From: Candidatus Sulfopaludibacter sp. SbA3
Lineage (GTDB): Bacteria; Pseudomonadota; Alphaproteobacteria; Caulobacterales; Hyphomonadaceae
NCBI GenBank assembly: GCA_945913285.1
Contig: CAMEDD010000004.1
Span: 1-64,000 of the forward strand
Direction of reading: 5' to 3'
Length of the DNA stretch: 64,000 nt
In this document: positions 6,488-58,864 of the stretch, in pieces
Numbering within the stretch: position 1 is the first letter of the stretch
How the letters are laid out: each line of letters opens with the position of its first letter
Position numbers and translations under genes: made by a program
Notes under the pieces: model-generated
Databases searched by the model: none
Told to the model about the DNA's origin: nothing
What the model saw: only the letters and a program-made list of their open reading frames with translations

Positions 6488-7620
6488 GCCGTCTTTTCCA
6501 CAAATACCGTTCCGGCCGAATAGCCCGCACCAAAGGAACAGATCAGGCCCTTTTCGCCCGGCTTGAAATCGGACGAGTTCTTGTGGAACGCGATGATCGA
6601 TCCTGCCGAAGACGTATTGGCATAAGTATCCAGCACCGTAGGGCTGTCGTCCTCAGTGGCGTCGCGCCCCAGAACTTTCGCTGAGATCAGCCGGTTCATG
6701 TTCGCGTTGGCCTGGTGCAGCCACATCCGGCGCAGGCTGGCGCCCGTCAGGCCAAGCTCGTTCATGTGGTCACCGATCATGTCGGCTACCATCGGCACAA
6801 CTTCCCGGAACACCTTTCTGCCTTCCTGGACGAACAGCTTGTCCGGCGTCCCGACGCCGTCAGGCGCCGCGCGGTTCAGGAAGCCGAAGTTGTTTCGGAT
6901 GTTATTCGAGAACTGAGTTTTCAGTTTCGTGCCGAGAATCTTCCAGTGCGCGCGCGGCGCAATATGCTCTGCCTCGACCAGAACGGCGGTCGCCACATCC
7001 CCGAAGATGAAGTGGCTGTCGCGGTCGGTGAAATTGAGGTGACCGGAACAGATCTCCGGGTTCACCATCAGCACTGACTTTGCATGTCCAGCGCGCACGA
7101 AATCAGCGGCCGTCTGTATACCGAACGTCGCCGACGAACACGCGACGTTCATGTCAAAGGCGAAGCCCTCAATGCCAAGCGCCTGCTGCACTTCAATCGC
7201 CATCGCCGGATAGGCGCGCTGCATGTTGGAGGCTGCGCAGATCACCGCGCCAATGTCTTTCGGGTCGCGCCCGGCTGCCCGCAGCGCATCGCGCGCCGCC
7301 AGCACCGCCATCTCTGCGAGGATCGATAACTGGTCATTCGGGCGTTCCGGAATACGGGGCGCCATGATGTCCGGATCGATCACACCCGCCTTGTCCACGA
7401 CGAAGCGCGACTTGATGCCGGACGCCTTCTCGATGAACTCGACGGAGGAGTGGGTCTTCGGTTCAACGAGGCCGGACTTGATCTCCGCTTCGTTCTCGCG
7501 GTTCCAGTTATCCGCCCAGGCATTGTAGCTCTGCACGAGTTCGGCGTTGGAAATGGATTGGGCGGGGGTCCAGAGGCCGGTGGCCGAAATCACGGGGGTG
7601 CTCACAAGTCGGTTCTCCAT
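6484..7620 (-). CDS. Beta-ketoacyl-ACP synthase III-like (FabH family)
   Basis: A 378-aa thiolase-fold condensing enzyme. The Cys-His-Asn triad is complete: C161 in NVACSSATFG, H302 in LHQANANMNR and N335 in YANTSSAG. It is about 50 residues longer than E. coli FabH, mostly in the N-terminal half (residues 25-60) and near 230-270. This is typical of a secondary FabH-like clade used in specialised acyl chain initiation. No acyl carrier protein or fab gene is adjacent. A broken lipoprotein gene overlaps its stop. The biological acyl substrate cannot be told from sequence. Confidence 0.85.
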   Translation of the reverse strand: MENRLVSTPVISATGLWTPAQSISNAELVQSYNAWADNWNRENEAEIKSGLVEPKTHSSVEFIEKASGIKSRFVVDKAGVIDPDIMAPRIPERPNDQLSILAEMAVLAARDALRAAGRDPKDIGAVICAASNMQRAYPAMAIEVQQALGIEGFAFDMNVACSSATFGIQTAADFVRAGHAKSVLMVNPEICSGHLNFTDRDSHFIFGDVATAVLVEAEHIAPRAHWKILGTKLKTQFSNNIRNNFGFLNRAAPDGVGTPDKLFVQEGRKVFREVVPMVADMIGDHMNELGLTGASLRRMWLHQANANMNRLISAKVLGRDATEDDSPTVLDTYANTSSAGSIIAFHKNSSDFKPGEKGLICSFGAGYSAGTVFVEKTA

Positions 7621-49272: not shown

Positions 49273-49713
49273 GTGGCGAAATATGAACCCAAGACCAAAG
49301 TGACGACGGTGACGCCGAAGGACTTCATTGCCGCGATGGAAGACGGCACGCGCAAGACCGACGCTGAAATGCTGCTCAAGTGGATGTCGAAGGTCACCGG
49401 CCTGAAACCGAAAATGTGGGGGCCGAGCATCATCGGTTTCGGGCGATACGCCTACACGTATGAGAGCGGACATTCGGGCGAGATGTGCCTAACGGGTTTC
49501 AGCCCCCGCAAGGCCAACATGGTGGTCTATGTGCTGCCCGGTTACACATCGGCCGAGATGACTGACCGCCTCGCGCGTCTCGGCAAGCACAAAACCGGCC
49601 AGAGCTGTCTCTATTTCGGCAGCCTCGACAAGATCGACATGGGCGTGCTGGCGGAGATCGTCACGGACGGCGTCGCGCACATGCGGAAAAAGTACCAGGT
49701 CTGGGACGCATGA
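49273..49713 (+). CDS. DUF1801 protein
   Basis: A 146-aa protein of the DUF1801/YdhG-like fold. WMSKVTGLKPKMWGPSIIGFGRYAY and KHKTGQSCLYFGSLDKIDM are the family's two conserved blocks. Its function is unknown; related proteins are small ligand-binding or iron-chaperone-like. GTG start at 49273 with GGAGGA about eight bases upstream. It lies between the long GST and the MarR gene. Confidence 0.8.
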   Translation: MAKYEPKTKVTTVTPKDFIAAMEDGTRKTDAEMLLKWMSKVTGLKPKMWGPSIIGFGRYAYTYESGHSGEMCLTGFSPRKANMVVYVLPGYTSAEMTDRLARLGKHKTGQSCLYFGSLDKIDMGVLAEIVTDGVAHMRKKYQVWDA

Positions 49714-49752
49714 CGCTCAAGCTTTCGTGAGCGTGATTGACGCCGGCGCAGA

Positions 49753-49772
49753 ATGACAACTATGGTTGTCAT
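49753..49772 (+). promoter_or_regulatory. Perfect 20-bp palindrome abutting the marR start codon
   Basis: Arms ATGACAAC and GTTGTCAT flank TATG, and the right arm ends one base before the ATG at 49773. MarR proteins bind palindromes of this length, so it is very likely the autoregulatory operator. No SD can be fitted between it and the ATG, so translation may be leaderless or use an internal start. Confidence 0.8.
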
Positions 49773-50270
49773 ATGGAATTGTCCCACGACGCCTCCCTGA
49801 GCGGTGACCTGCGCGATGTGCTTCGCTTTGCCGACAGTCTCTCGCAGGCCCATTTCCGTGTGTCGGAAATTGTCGGCGCGGTTCACGGTGATCGCCAGCT
49901 TGCGAGTGCCAGCCGCGTCATTCTGCGCTACCTCATGGCCGCCGGTCCGCGCACCGTGCCTGAGATCGCCACCTGGCGCGCCACCAGCCGCCAATTCATC
50001 CAGCGCCTTGTGGACGCGCTCGCCGAAGACGGGCTTGTGGCGCTCAAGGCCAATCCCGAGCACCAACGATCTCGCCTCGTCGCCGTCACGCGCAAGGGCC
50101 GTTCCCGGGTTGAGGCGATGGTGGCAAAGGAAGTGCGCTTGCTCGAAGAGGGGCTGAGGCGCAGCGGCGCCAGCCTCGCCGAGATGCGCGCGGCAACGAT
50201 CCTCATCCAGAAATACATTGGCGTGATTGATACGCTGACAGACGAAATCAACTCCGGAGTATCACAATGA
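49773..50270 (+). CDS. MarR-family regulator of the acylase operon
   Basis: A 165-aa winged-helix regulator. The recognition region is RTVPEIATWRATSRQFIQRLVDALAEDGLV, and the wing is NPEHQRSRLVAVTRKGRS; helices at both ends would form the dimer. The start codon directly follows a perfect 20-bp palindrome, so repression would block its own transcription. Its stop overlaps the penicillin-acylase-family gene (ATGA), so the two are co-expressed and the ligand may be related to that enzyme's substrate or product. The ATG at 49773 is preferred to in-frame codons upstream that cross the operator. Confidence 0.85.
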   Translation: MELSHDASLSGDLRDVLRFADSLSQAHFRVSEIVGAVHGDRQLASASRVILRYLMAAGPRTVPEIATWRATSRQFIQRLVDALAEDGLVALKANPEHQRSRLVAVTRKGRSRVEAMVAKEVRLLEEGLRRSGASLAEMRAATILIQKYIGVIDTLTDEINSGVSQ

Positions 50271-52327
50271 TCATGCGCCTTCTTCGTTTCGCCGGAGCGG
50301 GGCTCATGCTCCTTGGGCTGATTGCCCTCGGCTTCACGGTTTCCTCCTGCGCCAGCAGTGGCGCTCGCCTGTCAGGGCTGCAAAGCACGGCGCCGCCCGC
50401 GCCGTATCGGATCGAGCGCGACGAATATGGCGTCCCGACGGTCTATGGCGAAACAGACCCGGCCACAGCGTTTGGTCTCGCCTTTGCGCATTCCGAAGAT
50501 GACTTTGCGACCATCCAGCGCCAGGTATTGGCCGTACGCGGGGAACTGGGCGCGGTAGACGGTCCGGAGGGCGCGCAGGCCGATTACTTCGGAAAGCTGA
50601 TTGACGTGCAGGGGCAGCTCGCGGCCGGCATCAGTACCGTTTCGCCTGAAGCCCGCGCGATGGCACAAGGCTATGCAGACGGGCTCAATCTCTATGCGGC
50701 GATGCATCCGAAGGAAGTCCTCCGCCCGCAGATATTCCCTCTGACGGGAGACGACGTGATCGGCGGCTTCGTGCTGGTTTCTCCGCTCTTCTTCGGTGTG
50801 GATGGCACGGTCTCGCGACTTTTCGGCAATGGCGAGCTTCCGCCGGATACTGAACGCGGCTCAAATGCCTTCGCGTTTGCGCCGCACCGCACGGCGGATG
50901 GCTCGACTGTGCTGGTTTCCAACTCGCACCAACCCTGGGAAGGCGCAGCCGCCTGGTACGAAGCGCGCGTGGCGAGCGGTGAGGGCTGGTCGATGCAGGG
51001 CGCGCTGTTTCCAGGCAGCCCGGTCATCCTGATGGGGCACAACGCAAACCTCGGCTGGACCAACACGGTCAACCGGGCCGACTTGACCGATGTGTACAAG
51101 CTCGTGCTCGACGACAGCGGCAAACGCTACAAACTCGACGGGGAGTGGAAAGATCTTGCGCATCGCTACGTCTGGCTGAAGGTGAAGTTCGGCCCGGTCG
51201 TCGTGCCAGTCCGCCAAAGCGTCTGGGGCTCCGTGCACGGACCGGTCATAAAGAACAAATCAGGCGCGTATGCCATCCGCTATGCCGGCTATGGCGAAGT
51301 ACGACAGTTCGAACAGTACTATAAGCTAAGCCGAACGAACTCCCTCGAGGAATGGCGCGAGGTCATGGCCATGCAGGCCATCCCTGCCACAAACTACATC
51401 TACGCCGATAAGCTTGGAAACATTGCCTATCTTTACAATGCCCGCCTGCCGAAGCGCGATCCCTCCATTGCCTGGGAAGACGTGCTGCCGGGTGATCGCA
51501 GCGACCTGATCTGGACCGAGTATGAGCCGCCTGAGCGCATCCCGTTCCTGCTTAACCCGCCTGCTGGCTATGTCGTCAATTCCAACAACCTCCCCTGGCT
51601 TGCGACGGCTCCGGCGGACGACATGCAGCCTGAGGATTATCCCGGCCTTGTGGGCGTCGAGATGTGGAAGACTAACCGTATACTCCGGGCAAAGACGTTA
51701 TTGGAATCGGATGACATTTTCGATGATGCCGACATCCACCGCATCAAGTTCGACAAGGCGTATGACAAATCCTCCCGCCTCGGCGAAGCCTTCAAGGCGG
51801 CCTTGGAAGATGCCCGCGCGGCGGGAACGCTGACGCAGGCCGTTGCGTTGCTGGATACCTGGGATTGGACGGCCGACGGTCAGGGTAGTGCCGACTCGCT
51901 CGCGCTGATCCTGTTGCAAGACCTCCAATGGAAACTTTATGCTCGTGAGACGCTGCCTGCGGGCCGCGATATCCTTGCCAAGGCTGACGCGCACCTGCGC
52001 GGGCATTTCGGCAAACTTGATGTGCCATATGCGGAGTTTGCGCGCCTGCGCCGTGGAAAGGCGGACTTCGCCATTGCGGGCGGGCCAGAAACCCTCCGTG
52101 CACTGCTCTTCCTTCCGGATGAAGTCGATGGCCGTTATGTGGCCGCTGGCGGCGACAGTTTCATGCTGATGGTGAAGTGGCCGAAGGATGGCAGTGCCCC
52201 GCAGACCCGCACCATCTATCCTTTCGGTGCCGCGATGGGGCGCCCGGATTCGCCTCACTATTCGGATCAGTCGGAGATGTTCTCGAAGGAGGAATTCAAG
52301 GAAAGCCCTTTGCCCGTGTATAACTAG
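50267..52327 (+). CDS. Penicillin/acyl-homoserine-lactone acylase-family lipoprotein
   Basis: A 686-aa Ntn-hydrolase precursor. It begins with a membrane or lipoprotein signal ending VSSC (Cys about 28). The alpha-chain region contains the family start RIERDEYGVPTVYGETDPATAFGLAFAHSEDD. The self-cleavage site is ERG-SNAF, making Ser199 the nucleophile of the beta chain. LGWTNTVNRADLTDVY and the Asn in VVNSNNLPWLA fit the catalytic core. AHL, beta-lactam or aculeacin-type amides are the known substrate classes; which one applies here is not clear. It is translationally coupled to a MarR repressor. Confidence 0.85.
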   Translation: MIMRLLRFAGAGLMLLGLIALGFTVSSCASSGARLSGLQSTAPPAPYRIERDEYGVPTVYGETDPATAFGLAFAHSEDDFATIQRQVLAVRGELGAVDGPEGAQADYFGKLIDVQGQLAAGISTVSPEARAMAQGYADGLNLYAAMHPKEVLRPQIFPLTGDDVIGGFVLVSPLFFGVDGTVSRLFGNGELPPDTERGSNAFAFAPHRTADGSTVLVSNSHQPWEGAAAWYEARVASGEGWSMQGALFPGSPVILMGHNANLGWTNTVNRADLTDVYKLVLDDSGKRYKLDGEWKDLAHRYVWLKVKFGPVVVPVRQSVWGSVHGPVIKNKSGAYAIRYAGYGEVRQFEQYYKLSRTNSLEEWREVMAMQAIPATNYIYADKLGNIAYLYNARLPKRDPSIAWEDVLPGDRSDLIWTEYEPPERIPFLLNPPAGYVVNSNNLPWLATAPADDMQPEDYPGLVGVEMWKTNRILRAKTLLESDDIFDDADIHRIKFDKAYDKSSRLGEAFKAALEDARAAGTLTQAVALLDTWDWTADGQGSADSLALILLQDLQWKLYARETLPAGRDILAKADAHLRGHFGKLDVPYAEFARLRRGKADFAIAGGPETLRALLFLPDEVDGRYVAAGGDSFMLMVKWPKDGSAPQTRTIYPFGAAMGRPDSPHYSDQSEMFSKEEFKESPLPVYN

Positions 52328-52342
52328 AACGAACCTCACCAA

Positions 52343-52432
52343 GCGCTCATGCTGAGCGAAGTCGAAGCATCAGGAGCGCGCTTGATGCAACGGTTGCGTC
52401 TTGCTTCCTGTCCTTCGCCTTCGCTCAGGTTG
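52343..52432. repeat. REP-like inverted repeats between convergent genes
   Basis: The hairpin GCGCTC-ATGCT-(loop)-AGCAT-CAG-GAGCGC spans 52343-52379. Its core CTGAGCGAAGTCGAAG recurs inverted at about 52414-52432 (CTTCGCCTTCGCTCAG). The pair can fold into one long stem between the converging acylase and hemB genes. Elements with a CTGAGCGAAGTCGAAG core are common intergenic repeats in several proteobacteria. Here it probably ends both transcripts. Confidence 0.65.
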
Positions 52433-52448
52433 AGCCTGCGCTGCTTGA

Positions 52449-53447
52449 CTACCGGCCGAGCTTCTCGGCCGCACGCTCGGCAAAATAGGTGATCACGCCC
52501 GCTGCGCCGGCGCGCTTGAAGCTCAGCAGGGTTTCCATCATCACGCGGTCGCCGTCGATCCAGCCGTTCTGGGCGGCGGCCATGATCTGCGCGTATTCGC
52601 CGGAGACCTGGTAGGCGAGCGTTGGCACGCCGAAGGTGGTGGAGACGCGGTGGACAATGTCCAGATAGGGCAAGCCCGGTTTGACCATAACCATGTCGGC
52701 GCCCTCGGCGAGATCGAGCGCCACTTCGCGCAGCGCTTCGTCCGTGTTCGAAGGATCCTGCTGGTAGGTCTTCTTGTCGCCTTTCAGCGCTGCTGCCGAG
52801 CCGATGGCCTCGCGGTAGGGGCCATAAAAGCCGCTGGCATACTTTGCCGCGTAGGCGAGGATCATCGCATTTGTGAAGCCCTCTTCTTCGAAGGCGAGGC
52901 GGATGGCGCCGATGCGTCCGTCCATCATATCCGACGGCGCGACCACATCCGCGCCTGCGCTGACATGCACGAGCGCCTGCGTGACGAGCCGTTCGACGGT
53001 GGAGTCATTCGGGATCGTGCCGTCGTCGTCCAGCAAACCGTCATGGCCGTGGCTGGTATAAGCGTCGAGCGCAACGTCCGTGATTAGACCAACTTCCGGA
53101 GCGGCATCCTTCATGGCTTTCAGCGCGCGCGGCACGAGGCCGTCCGGCGAGAGGGCGCCGGTGCCTTCGGGATCCTTGCCCTCCGGCCCGATATACGGGA
53201 ACAGTGCGATCGCCGGGATACCGAGCGCCTTTGCGCGTTTTGCAGCGCCAGCCGCTTCGTTTACCGAGAGCCGGTCCACGCCGGGCAGCGAAGCGACCGG
53301 CACGCGGCCCTCGCCATCATGGATGAAGACGGCCCAGACCAGGTCGGCTGGGGTCAACACGTTTTCGCCAGTGAGCGAGCGCACCCAGGGAGCCTGGCGC
53401 AGGCGCCGCATACGGGTGGCGGGAAAGGACTGTGGAAACTGGGTCAT
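52449..53447 (-). CDS. hemB: Delta-aminolevulinic acid dehydratase
   Basis: A 332-aa porphobilinogen synthase, second common step of haem synthesis. The Schiff-base Lys lies in MVMVKPGLPYLDIV, with the other active-site Lys in the SGFYGPYREAIGSA...GDKKTYQQDP stretch. The metal site reads DVALDAYTSHGHDG, with Asp/Ala replacing the three Cys of zinc enzymes, so this is the Mg-dependent or metal-light alphaproteobacterial form. The length is normal. Confidence 0.96.
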   Translation of the reverse strand: MTQFPQSFPATRMRRLRQAPWVRSLTGENVLTPADLVWAVFIHDGEGRVPVASLPGVDRLSVNEAAGAAKRAKALGIPAIALFPYIGPEGKDPEGTGALSPDGLVPRALKAMKDAAPEVGLITDVALDAYTSHGHDGLLDDDGTIPNDSTVERLVTQALVHVSAGADVVAPSDMMDGRIGAIRLAFEEEGFTNAMILAYAAKYASGFYGPYREAIGSAAALKGDKKTYQQDPSNTDEALREVALDLAEGADMVMVKPGLPYLDIVHRVSTTFGVPTLAYQVSGEYAQIMAAAQNGWIDGDRVMMETLLSFKRAGAAGVITYFAERAAEKLGR

Positions 53448-56468: not shown

Positions 56469-56963
56469 TTAGAGACGATACCGGATCTGGTCAGACCAGA
56501 AGCGCTCAAGACGCGAGATCGTCTTGTTGAGCTGCGAGAGATCATCGGCGCGGACGCTGGCCGTCGGCTCGAGGGCTATTGCCTGTTTCTCGAACAGTTT
56601 CGCCACGCGGGCGCGGACCTTCTTGCCGCGGTCCGTCAGATGCAGCGTGACTGTGCGCTTGTCATCTTCAGAGCGCGTCTGGACGAGATAGCCGGCTTCC
56701 TGAAGTTTCTTCAAGTTGTAGGAAAGGCTCGTGCCAGCAAAGGCGCCGCGGGCGCGGAGCACGGAAGCGGCAGCTTCTCCTTCGCCGATTTCATAAAGCA
56801 GGAGCGCCTGGACGCCGGTCAGCGACCGTTCACCGCCACGCTCAAGGTCGTCCTTGACGACATCGTGCAGCCGGCGATGTGCCTGCTCGAGAAGCGACAG
56901 AGACTTTAGGAAAGACTCGCCGATAGAAGTATTCGCAGTTTCCTGCATTTCGATCATCATCAT
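56469..56963 (-). CDS. MarR-family transcriptional regulator
   Basis: A 164-aa winged-helix repressor. The DNA-binding region has LTGVQALLLYEIGEG, GTSLSYNLKKLQEAGYLVQ (recognition helix) and TRSEDDKRTVTLHLTDRGKK (wing). The start is uncertain: ATGs at 56963, 56960 and 56957 are in frame, as is a GTG at 56975. A CAAC-N4-GTTG palindrome sits just upstream. The downstream DUF2141 pseudogene is convergent, so the target is probably elsewhere or upstream. Confidence 0.82.
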   Translation of the reverse strand: MMMIEMQETANTSIGESFLKSLSLLEQAHRRLHDVVKDDLERGGERSLTGVQALLLYEIGEGEAAASVLRARGAFAGTSLSYNLKKLQEAGYLVQTRSEDDKRTVTLHLTDRGKKVRARVAKLFEKQAIALEPTASVRADDLSQLNKTISRLERFWSDQIRYRL

Positions 56964-56976
56964 TTTCACCACCACT

Positions 56977-57793: not shown

Positions 57794-58864
57794 TCAGCCG
57801 GCCGGCCAGAACGTCAGTTCGTTCGGGCCGAGCCGTTCAAAATACTGGGCCACATCTGCGTCGCTTACATCTTCAAGGCGGGACGGTGACCACTTCGGTG
57901 CGTTGTCCTTGTCGACAATCACGGCGCGCACGCCTTCCAGGAAATCCGCGCTCTGCACCTTTCGCCAGCCGATACGGAACTCCATGCGCATACTGTCTTC
58001 GAACGTGTCTGCGGCGCGGCCTTCCCGGAGTTGCCGGAGAGCCACCTTAACAGTCTCCGGGCTTTTGGCGCGCAGGGTCGCCGCTTCAGTGCGCGCCCAA
58101 TCGGTGTCTTCAGCGTCCAGCGCGGCGAGAATGTCTTCGGCCGCGTCAAACCTAAAGCAGCGATCGATCGCTTCGCGATACGGCTCGAAGCTAGCGTGGG
58201 CGCGGGTATGTGTCAGACGCGAGAGGATCTCGTTCAGCAAGTCTGCGGCGCCGGCGGAGAAGTCCGCGGCTTCGATCTGTCTCGACAGCGCGGGCACGAG
58301 TTCGGAGGGTAGGTAATGCGTGGCAATGCGCGCGGCGGCGACGTCTGCGCCTTTGAGGCGCGCGCCCGTCAGCGCGAGCCAGGTGCCGAGCTCCCCGCCG
58401 AGACGCGGCAGGAACCAACCTCCGCCGACATCGGGAAACAGGCCAATACCCGTTTCCGGCATCGCGAAGACCGTGCGTTCGGTCGCCACGCGGTGAGAGC
58501 CGTGCACGGACAATCCGACGCCGCCGCCCATGGTGACGCCGTCGATGATCGACAGGATCGGTTTAGGAAAAGCTTCCAGGGCTGCGTTCATCCGGTATTC
58601 GGTGCGGAAGAATTCCCGCGCCTCTGTAGCGTCTCCAGCTCCGCTTTCGGCCAGCATGCGGATATCGCCGCCGGCGCAGAAGCCGCGCGTGCCGTCCTGA
58701 TGGTCGATCAGGAGAAGGTGGATGGATGGATCAGCCGCCCATGCCGTCACCGCTGCCAGAATGTCCCCGCACATCGGCGTGTTGAGCGCGTGCAGGGCAG
58801 AGGGGCGCATCAGCGTGATGCGGCCGAGCCCGCCCTCTTGTCGTATCAACACATCTGGATTCAT
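57794..58864 (-). CDS. 3-hydroxyisobutyryl-CoA hydrolase-like crotonase
   Basis: A 356-aa crotonase-fold enzyme, longer than a plain enoyl-CoA hydratase (about 260). This is the HIBCH pattern: oxyanion-hole segments GFCAGGDIRMLAE and DGVTMGGGVGLSVHG, and MPETGIGLFPDVGGGWFL carrying the catalytic Glu. The tail MEFRIGWRKVQSADFLEGVRAVIVDKDNAPKW is also HIBCH-like. It would cleave 3-hydroxyisobutyryl-CoA in valine breakdown, giving the substrate of the dehydrogenase at 47 kb. First gene of a two-gene operon with the DUF805 protein. Confidence 0.86.
   Translation of the reverse strand: MNPDVLIRQEGGLGRITLMRPSALHALNTPMCGDILAAVTAWAADPSIHLLLIDHQDGTRGFCAGGDIRMLAESGAGDATEAREFFRTEYRMNAALEAFPKPILSIIDGVTMGGGVGLSVHGSHRVATERTVFAMPETGIGLFPDVGGGWFLPRLGGELGTWLALTGARLKGADVAAARIATHYLPSELVPALSRQIEAADFSAGAADLLNEILSRLTHTRAHASFEPYREAIDRCFRFDAAEDILAALDAEDTDWARTEAATLRAKSPETVKVALRQLREGRAADTFEDSMRMEFRIGWRKVQSADFLEGVRAVIVDKDNAPKWSPSRLEDVSDADVAQYFERLGPNELTFWPAG

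Follow-up and report, generated by a model that had tools for sequence, protein, structure and literature searches.

How is a marR gene controlled when an inverted repeat ends on the very base that precedes its start codon, and what does the acylase gene that overlaps its 3' end do for the cell? We examined this locus in a 64,000-nt stretch of contig CAMEDD010000004.1 (the window) together with five related loci (L065-L069). The first-pass annotation, made from the window's letters, had described a MarR repressor gene coupled to a gene for an Ntn-type acylase, and both identities were confirmed by family searches: the MarR winged-helix domain PF12802 scored 33.6 bits, above its curated cut-off of 27, and Penicil_amidase PF01804 scored 325.5 bits over acylase residues 48-681, with a cut-off of 21.3. 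The marR stop lies over the acylase start, as had been read, in a 4-nt ATGA kept in all six loci. The acylase has GGAG 7 nt ahead of its ATG in four of the six (GGGG in L067 and GGAT in L069). The statement that marR lacks a Shine-Dalgarno sequence also held for the window, as judged by eye; in four relatives a variant of the dyad happens to read GGTG. Comparison of the loci thereby supports the proposed coupling, and marR and the acylase gene are predicted to make up a single two-gene unit with coupled translation. No terminator call fell in this region. The features are collected in Table 1.

Table 1 Features of the marR-acylase locus (window positions)
Feature	Position	Strand	Basis or remark
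DUF1801 gene	49273-49713	+	59-nt gap, then marR
Second inverted repeat, CTCAAG-CTTT-CGTGAG	49716-49731		A few bases upstream of the -35
Predicted -35, TTGACG	49737-49742	+	Promoter scan; invariant, at a constant 36 nt from the marR ATG in 6/6 loci
Predicted MarR operator, 8-bp arms and 4-nt spacer, abutting the start codon	49753-49772		Comparison of 6 loci
Predicted -10, TATGGT, inside the dyad centre	49761-49766	+	Promoter scan (18-nt spacer, 9/12); alignment
Predicted start of transcription, on the A of the marR start codon	49773	+	36 nt downstream of the first T of TTGACG
marR, MarR-family regulator, 165 aa	49773-50270	+	PF12802; coding pattern begins at the 49773 ATG
Shine-Dalgarno-like CCGGAG of the acylase gene, within marR	50254-50259	+	GGAG 7 nt before the ATG
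Ntn-hydrolase acylase gene, 686 aa, predicted lipoprotein	50267-52327	+	PF01804; alignments to solved acylases
hemB (porphobilinogen synthase)	52449-53447	opposite	Family search, 469.5 bits, cut-off 297

Other features surround the unit. A REP-like reading of positions 52342-52443 was rejected, the 14-mer GAGCGAAGTCGAAG being present once in the genome, so that a repeat family was not shown. In L067, about 550 nt (~6562-7109) separate the acylase gene from hemB and may hold another gene; a spacing as long as this was not seen in the window, L065, L068 or L069. Downstream of the unit, the window carries a second MarR-like gene (56469-56975, minus strand; PF13463, 51.4 bits) and, beyond hemB, a gene of the 3-hydroxyisobutyryl-CoA hydrolase family (57794-58864, minus strand; 401 bits, cut-off 274).

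At E <= 1e-30, 6 of 42 genomes of the genus have the MarR, counting the window's own (4 of the 37 better genomes); a contig scan, which reached close relatives only, gave the same five relatives at coinciding contig positions, and a class sample of 385 genomes gave seven MarR matches at E <= 1e-18, again counting the window's own. The order DUF1801-MarR-acylase is common to all six carrier loci, which come from one genus, the contig of L066 ending within the acylase. Of 200 genomes searched in the order, 128 had acylase relatives at E <= 1e-30, so the acylase type is an ordinary one. No MarR relative was found in the flanks read beside 28 other acylase loci (L037-L064, among the matches listed), a check that covered open reading frames of at least 60 aa over at least 1081 nt upstream and could miss remote MarRs; nor was an acylase found near 34 loci of more distant MarR relatives, with about 1.5 kb covered on each side where the contig allowed. 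Penicil_amidase matched once in the window's genome (3.02 Mb, 93% complete), likewise once in each of the carrier genomes G200, G201 and G202, twice in the carrier G203, and in the carrier G036 as two partial matches on separate contigs, which may be pieces of one gene.

The site without the unit was found in another genome of the genus, G041, where just 4 nt separate the stop codon of DUF1801 from that of hemB (L103, ~2490-2507) and marR, the acylase gene and the upstream repeat are absent. The unit was not seen at hemB in any of 10 genus genomes searched, in the stretch covered. Because of the empty G041 site, gain of the unit between DUF1801 and hemB in one lineage is a simpler reading than loss. 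An acyl-CoA dehydrogenase-like gene adjoins hemB on the other side in 10 of 10 genus genomes examined that lack the unit, and such a gene also lies beyond hemB in the window; since this neighbourhood is kept without the unit, it does not explain the acylase.

Two observations concern individual carriers. The records of L066, L067 and L069 (CAMDAC010000041.1, LNFC01000017.1 and CALGEF010000049.1) are titled Acidobacteria or Sulfopaludibacter; these public labels are probably wrong, because the genus search places all three in the window's genus and they have the common gene order. The unit of L069 (4001-6546) looks decayed: its acylase frame stops at residue 290, four residues are deleted from its MarR, which also carries changes to proline, and its dyad is degraded, with 14 of 20 positions self-complementary. 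A second acylase of the L069 genome lies on another contig (L091).

The dyad has the arms ATGACAAC and GTTGTCAT (49753-49760 and 49765-49772), and its last base immediately precedes the marR ATG, just as the annotation had stated. Its description as a perfect 20-bp palindrome holds for the 8-bp arms but not for the whole 20-mer, which matches its own reverse complement at 18 of 20 positions, the central TATG not being self-complementary. By length alone the dyad is unremarkable and near chance. The window contains 20 perfect 8-bp inverted repeats with spacers of 0-8 nt versus 16.2 expected (SD 3.4), and 5 with a 4-nt spacer only versus 1.7 expected (SD 1.4), both from 40 dinucleotide shuffles. 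With the window counts so near the shuffles (20 versus 16.2), rarity was discarded as evidence. The dyad is credible because of its position and its conservation in all six carriers. Its core, drawn from the six loci, reads GACA[AC]C-TAYG-G[GT]TGTC; of the 12 arm columns of this core, 10 are the same throughout and the remaining two vary in concert in two loci, while the stretch from the -35 to the dyad is variable. Across the loci 95.8% of cells are paired. Of the eight pairs, five are constant and one is altered in both arms (C-G in four loci, A-T in two). In L065 the outermost pair is disrupted, and in L068 it is a G-T wobble; the adjacent pair is disrupted in L069. The covariation thus amounts to one pair and is small evidence, as the two changed sequences may share one event; with both repeats of the locus taken together, 29 of 500 shuffles reached the covariation score and 309 of 500 reached the number of pairs changed on both sides. 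In each of the six genomes, from which the pattern had itself been drawn, the core occurs without mismatch at the marR site only, and all other matches to the arm pattern in the window's genome carry 3 mismatches, the maximum allowed.

A second inverted repeat, missed by the first-pass annotation, lies upstream of the -35. It reads CTCACG-CTTT-CGTGAG in four of the five relatives and has one mismatch in the window and in L069. Fourteen of its 16 columns are invariant in the six loci, and each carrier genome has a single copy (up to 1 mismatch, with a pattern derived from the six loci themselves). It was not found at up to 3 mismatches in L103 or L105, both of which have DUF1801 and hemB and lack the unit. 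The repeat has no T-run; its role may be to insulate the unit from DUF1801, or it may be a site for another protein. Its conservation, at least as strong as that of the dyad, also bears on the reading that the dyad is a chance repeat and that regulation runs through 49716-49731 or elsewhere, a reading that would fit the near-chance frequency of such repeats in the window. We nevertheless regard it as quite unlikely, given that the core arm columns of the dyad are nearly all invariant, with a paired change in the remaining two, beside a variable stretch, and that the exact core is confined to the marR promoter in each of the six genomes.

With the dyad taken as the candidate operator, we asked where transcription would begin. 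Taken alone, the promoter scan does not rise clearly over chance (2 found versus 0.8 expected in the shuffle control, SD 0.9), and the -10 is poor, with TATGGT in the window and the still weaker TATGGG or TACGGG in four relatives. The -35 keeps a fixed distance from the ATG in all six loci. In Caulobacter crescentus, which we place in the same bacterial order as the host, 93% of RpoD motifs (1,542/1,666) are reported to have their first base 34-37 nt ahead of the mapped start (PMC4287350), and 375 leaderless mRNAs have been described (PMC4117421); the records of two of the relatives are labelled Hyphomonadaceae. TTGACG begins 36 nt before the ATG, so the 34-37 nt rule leads to an expected start on the A of that ATG, give or take two bases. 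The marR mRNA is accordingly positioned in our model as a predicted leaderless message, its start codon coinciding with its transcription start. The earlier suggestion of a self-repressing, possibly leaderless unit gains support from the comparison, which puts the dyad over the -10 and the predicted start on the ATG.

The same fixed distance bears on whether the dyad might act in RNA instead, as a hairpin at the start codon: transcripts arriving from upstream would fold ATGACAAC against GTTGTCAT and hide or present the marR ATG, giving control at translation. In its favour, both leadered RNAs tried were predicted to fold with the stem formed, the DUF1801 gene precedes marR on its strand at a distance of 59 nt, and the paired double change would preserve an RNA stem as well as a DNA site. 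On the other hand, the folding of these leadered RNAs was not significant (z -0.56 and -1.42), with a -35 fixed at 36 nt, transcription would start beyond the stem, and the repeat adjoins the gene for a DNA-binding protein of the MarR family. We therefore hold the hairpin to be improbable and retain the dyad as a predicted DNA operator.

We also asked where the coding sequence of marR begins. The marR frame is open upstream to a TTG at 49737 in five of the six loci, and translation from this TTG would turn the dyad into coding sequence. We counted differences by codon position in five of the six loci, L069 being omitted for a 12-nt gap in its marR. Before the ATG, positions 1, 2 and 3 carry 20, 24 and 24 differences; after it, they carry 16, 4 and 31 in codons 1-12 and 31, 20 and 173 in codons 13-60. 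The codon differences before the ATG comprise 39 non-synonymous versus 9 synonymous changes, and the third-position excess is absent there. Because differences are even before the ATG and fall mainly on third positions after it, the comparison places the coding start of marR at the ATG at 49773. An in-frame TAA in L069 also speaks against the upstream start, although L069 looks decayed. The TTG was rejected as the MarR start on the codon-position pattern together with this TAA, and we give it next to no credence.

Dimeric MarR regulators have a helix-helix-helix-wing-long helices layout, and a structure model of the MarR, of low confidence (mean pLDDT 62.9, pTM 0.50), has the element order expected, H H H E E H H. 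MarR sites have been described as palindromes of 16-20 bp that overlap promoter elements (PMC5401885); the conserved dyad, overlapping the predicted -10, is a candidate for such a site. No second good site was seen in the genome, where with the TAYG centre the marR site alone is exact. Two other zero-mismatch core matches, obtained in the window's genome when the spacer was left free, fall within open frames and were dismissed as members of a wider MarR regulon. At up to 1 mismatch with a free spacer the core matched the window's genome about as often as the reversed control pattern did (11 versus 9 per strand), and the weaker matches (2 mismatches) in the six genomes stayed at the level of the reversed-pattern control. 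Because the exact core occurs once per genome in six genomes, with 2-mismatch matches at control level, the MarR looks like a local, dedicated regulator.

These data point to a self-contained, ligand-responsive two-gene operon, which we consider the probable reading of the locus and whose regulatory anatomy is well supported by comparison. It rests on sequence comparison of the promoter geometry, the dyad, the ATGA overlap, the coding start and the catalytic residues. A MarR dimer would bind the dyad; because the dyad spans the -10 and runs up to the predicted start, bound MarR would cover the -10, reach the start and keep RNA polymerase off its own promoter. A small ligand would free the promoter of MarR, whereupon a leaderless mRNA would begin at the marR ATG; the overlapping ATGA, along with the GGAG that belongs to the acylase gene, would allow both genes to be translated jointly. 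The acylase would then be exported, anchored to lipid and matured by self-cleavage to a Ser199 amidase.

Parts of this arrangement have precedents. OhrR of Chromobacterium violaceum is likewise a MarR-family autorepressor with a predicted leaderless mRNA whose start overlaps the initiation codon, and its sites lie over its own promoter (PMC3469484). OhrR differs in that it responds to organic hydroperoxides by way of Cys and regulates ohrA as well, from ohrA's own promoter (PMC3469484), whereas the target here is an Ntn acylase downstream in the same operon. CrtR of Corynebacterium glutamicum is also a negatively autoregulated MarR-type protein, reported to be leaderless, but it controls a divergent carotenoid operon, responds to isoprenoid pyrophosphates and has a different operator; no clear crtR promoter was found in that report (PMC5401885). 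Leaderless, autoregulated MarR genes are therefore already in print. In the literature searched for the pairing, mostly by titles and abstract openings, we found no operon that joins a MarR to an Ntn acylase. One AHL-acylase review does not use the term MarR in its main text (0 occurrences; PMC5474475), and the passages of PMC5802823 that mention MarR and acylase do so without relating them to each other.

We next considered the enzyme. Its catalytic set, Gly198-Ser199, His221, Asn440 and Arg471, was read from the alignment with glutaryl-cephalosporin acylase (GCA), where it corresponds to Ser199, His221, Asn442 and Arg472, positions named in PMC8197700. By this likeness, self-cleavage is expected before Ser199. 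The acylase alignment comprised five of the six loci, with L069 omitted because its frame stops at residue 290 and L066 cut by its contig end. The N-terminus is hydrophobic, and residues 25-28 read VSSC in all five aligned sequences, window included, which we take to be a lipobox; this suggests that the acylase is a lipoprotein. A structure model of the acylase was useless (pLDDT 31.9). Over its full length the best solved match is GCA with 209 bits, versus 136 for PvdQ. GCA Arg255, which binds the glutaryl carboxylate, is however replaced by Leu255, invariant in all five aligned sequences, window included; in addition, Gln248 is Phe, Tyr178 is aligned with Phe175 and Leu222 is Gln, where PvdQ has Phe. 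Given these four positions, the enzyme is predicted, by signature, not to be a glutaryl acylase.

The annotation had gone on to propose an inducible quorum-quenching or amide-salvage module. In the quorum-quenching version, the acylase would cleave N-acyl-homoserine lactones (AHLs) and the MarR would sense AHLs or their products. The AHL acylase PvdQ (PDB 2wyb, 4m1j and others) belongs to the same enzyme family, with its nucleophile Ser and its His aligned, and it is the best solved match to residues 199-402 (102 bits versus 96 for GCA). Moreover, substitution of GCA Arg255 by Gly or Ala gave weak AHL activity (PMC8197700), and Leu stands at this position here. Against this, the full-length comparison favours cephalosporin acylases, position 222 is Gln instead of the Leu of GCA or the Phe of PvdQ, and the NCBIfam PvdQ equivalog NF051460 scored 147.6 bits, far under its curated cut-off of 950; PvdQ further differs from the window's acylase in that the latter is a predicted lipoprotein. 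The wide occurrence of related acylases in the order, with 28 such loci (among the matches listed) lacking a MarR alongside, also weighs against it. The AHL synthase profile PF00765 gave a single match (62.4 bits; G036, C26:17690-17989, L090), that is, in one of the six carrier genomes, some of which are incomplete, and none in 14 control genomes either. This argues against control of the cell's own signals, not against quenching of others' signals. On balance quorum quenching was not supported and seems unlikely to us. Sensing of the acylase's substrate or product by MarR likewise found no support, and neither did amide salvage.

A bolder version of the proposal is that the locus is a portable, self-contained acylase cassette gained between DUF1801 and hemB, in which a leaderless autorepressing MarR would read an acyl-amide signal or its hydrolysis product and drive a surface lipoprotein acylase that removes the signal, with the second repeat as a second control layer: an inducible quencher of other bacteria's signals. 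We offer this as a long shot. If it were true, the cassette would quench others' signals in organisms mostly without a detected AHL synthase.

For most Penicil_amidase enzymes the natural substrate is, to our knowledge, not known. Here a dedicated repressor, for which one operator is predicted, would offer a route to the substrate of this one, because compounds that release the MarR would be candidate substrates or products of the acylase. The promoter, for its part, may be a compact case of an operator placed so close to the gene that a leader would not fit, in keeping with a leaderless message.
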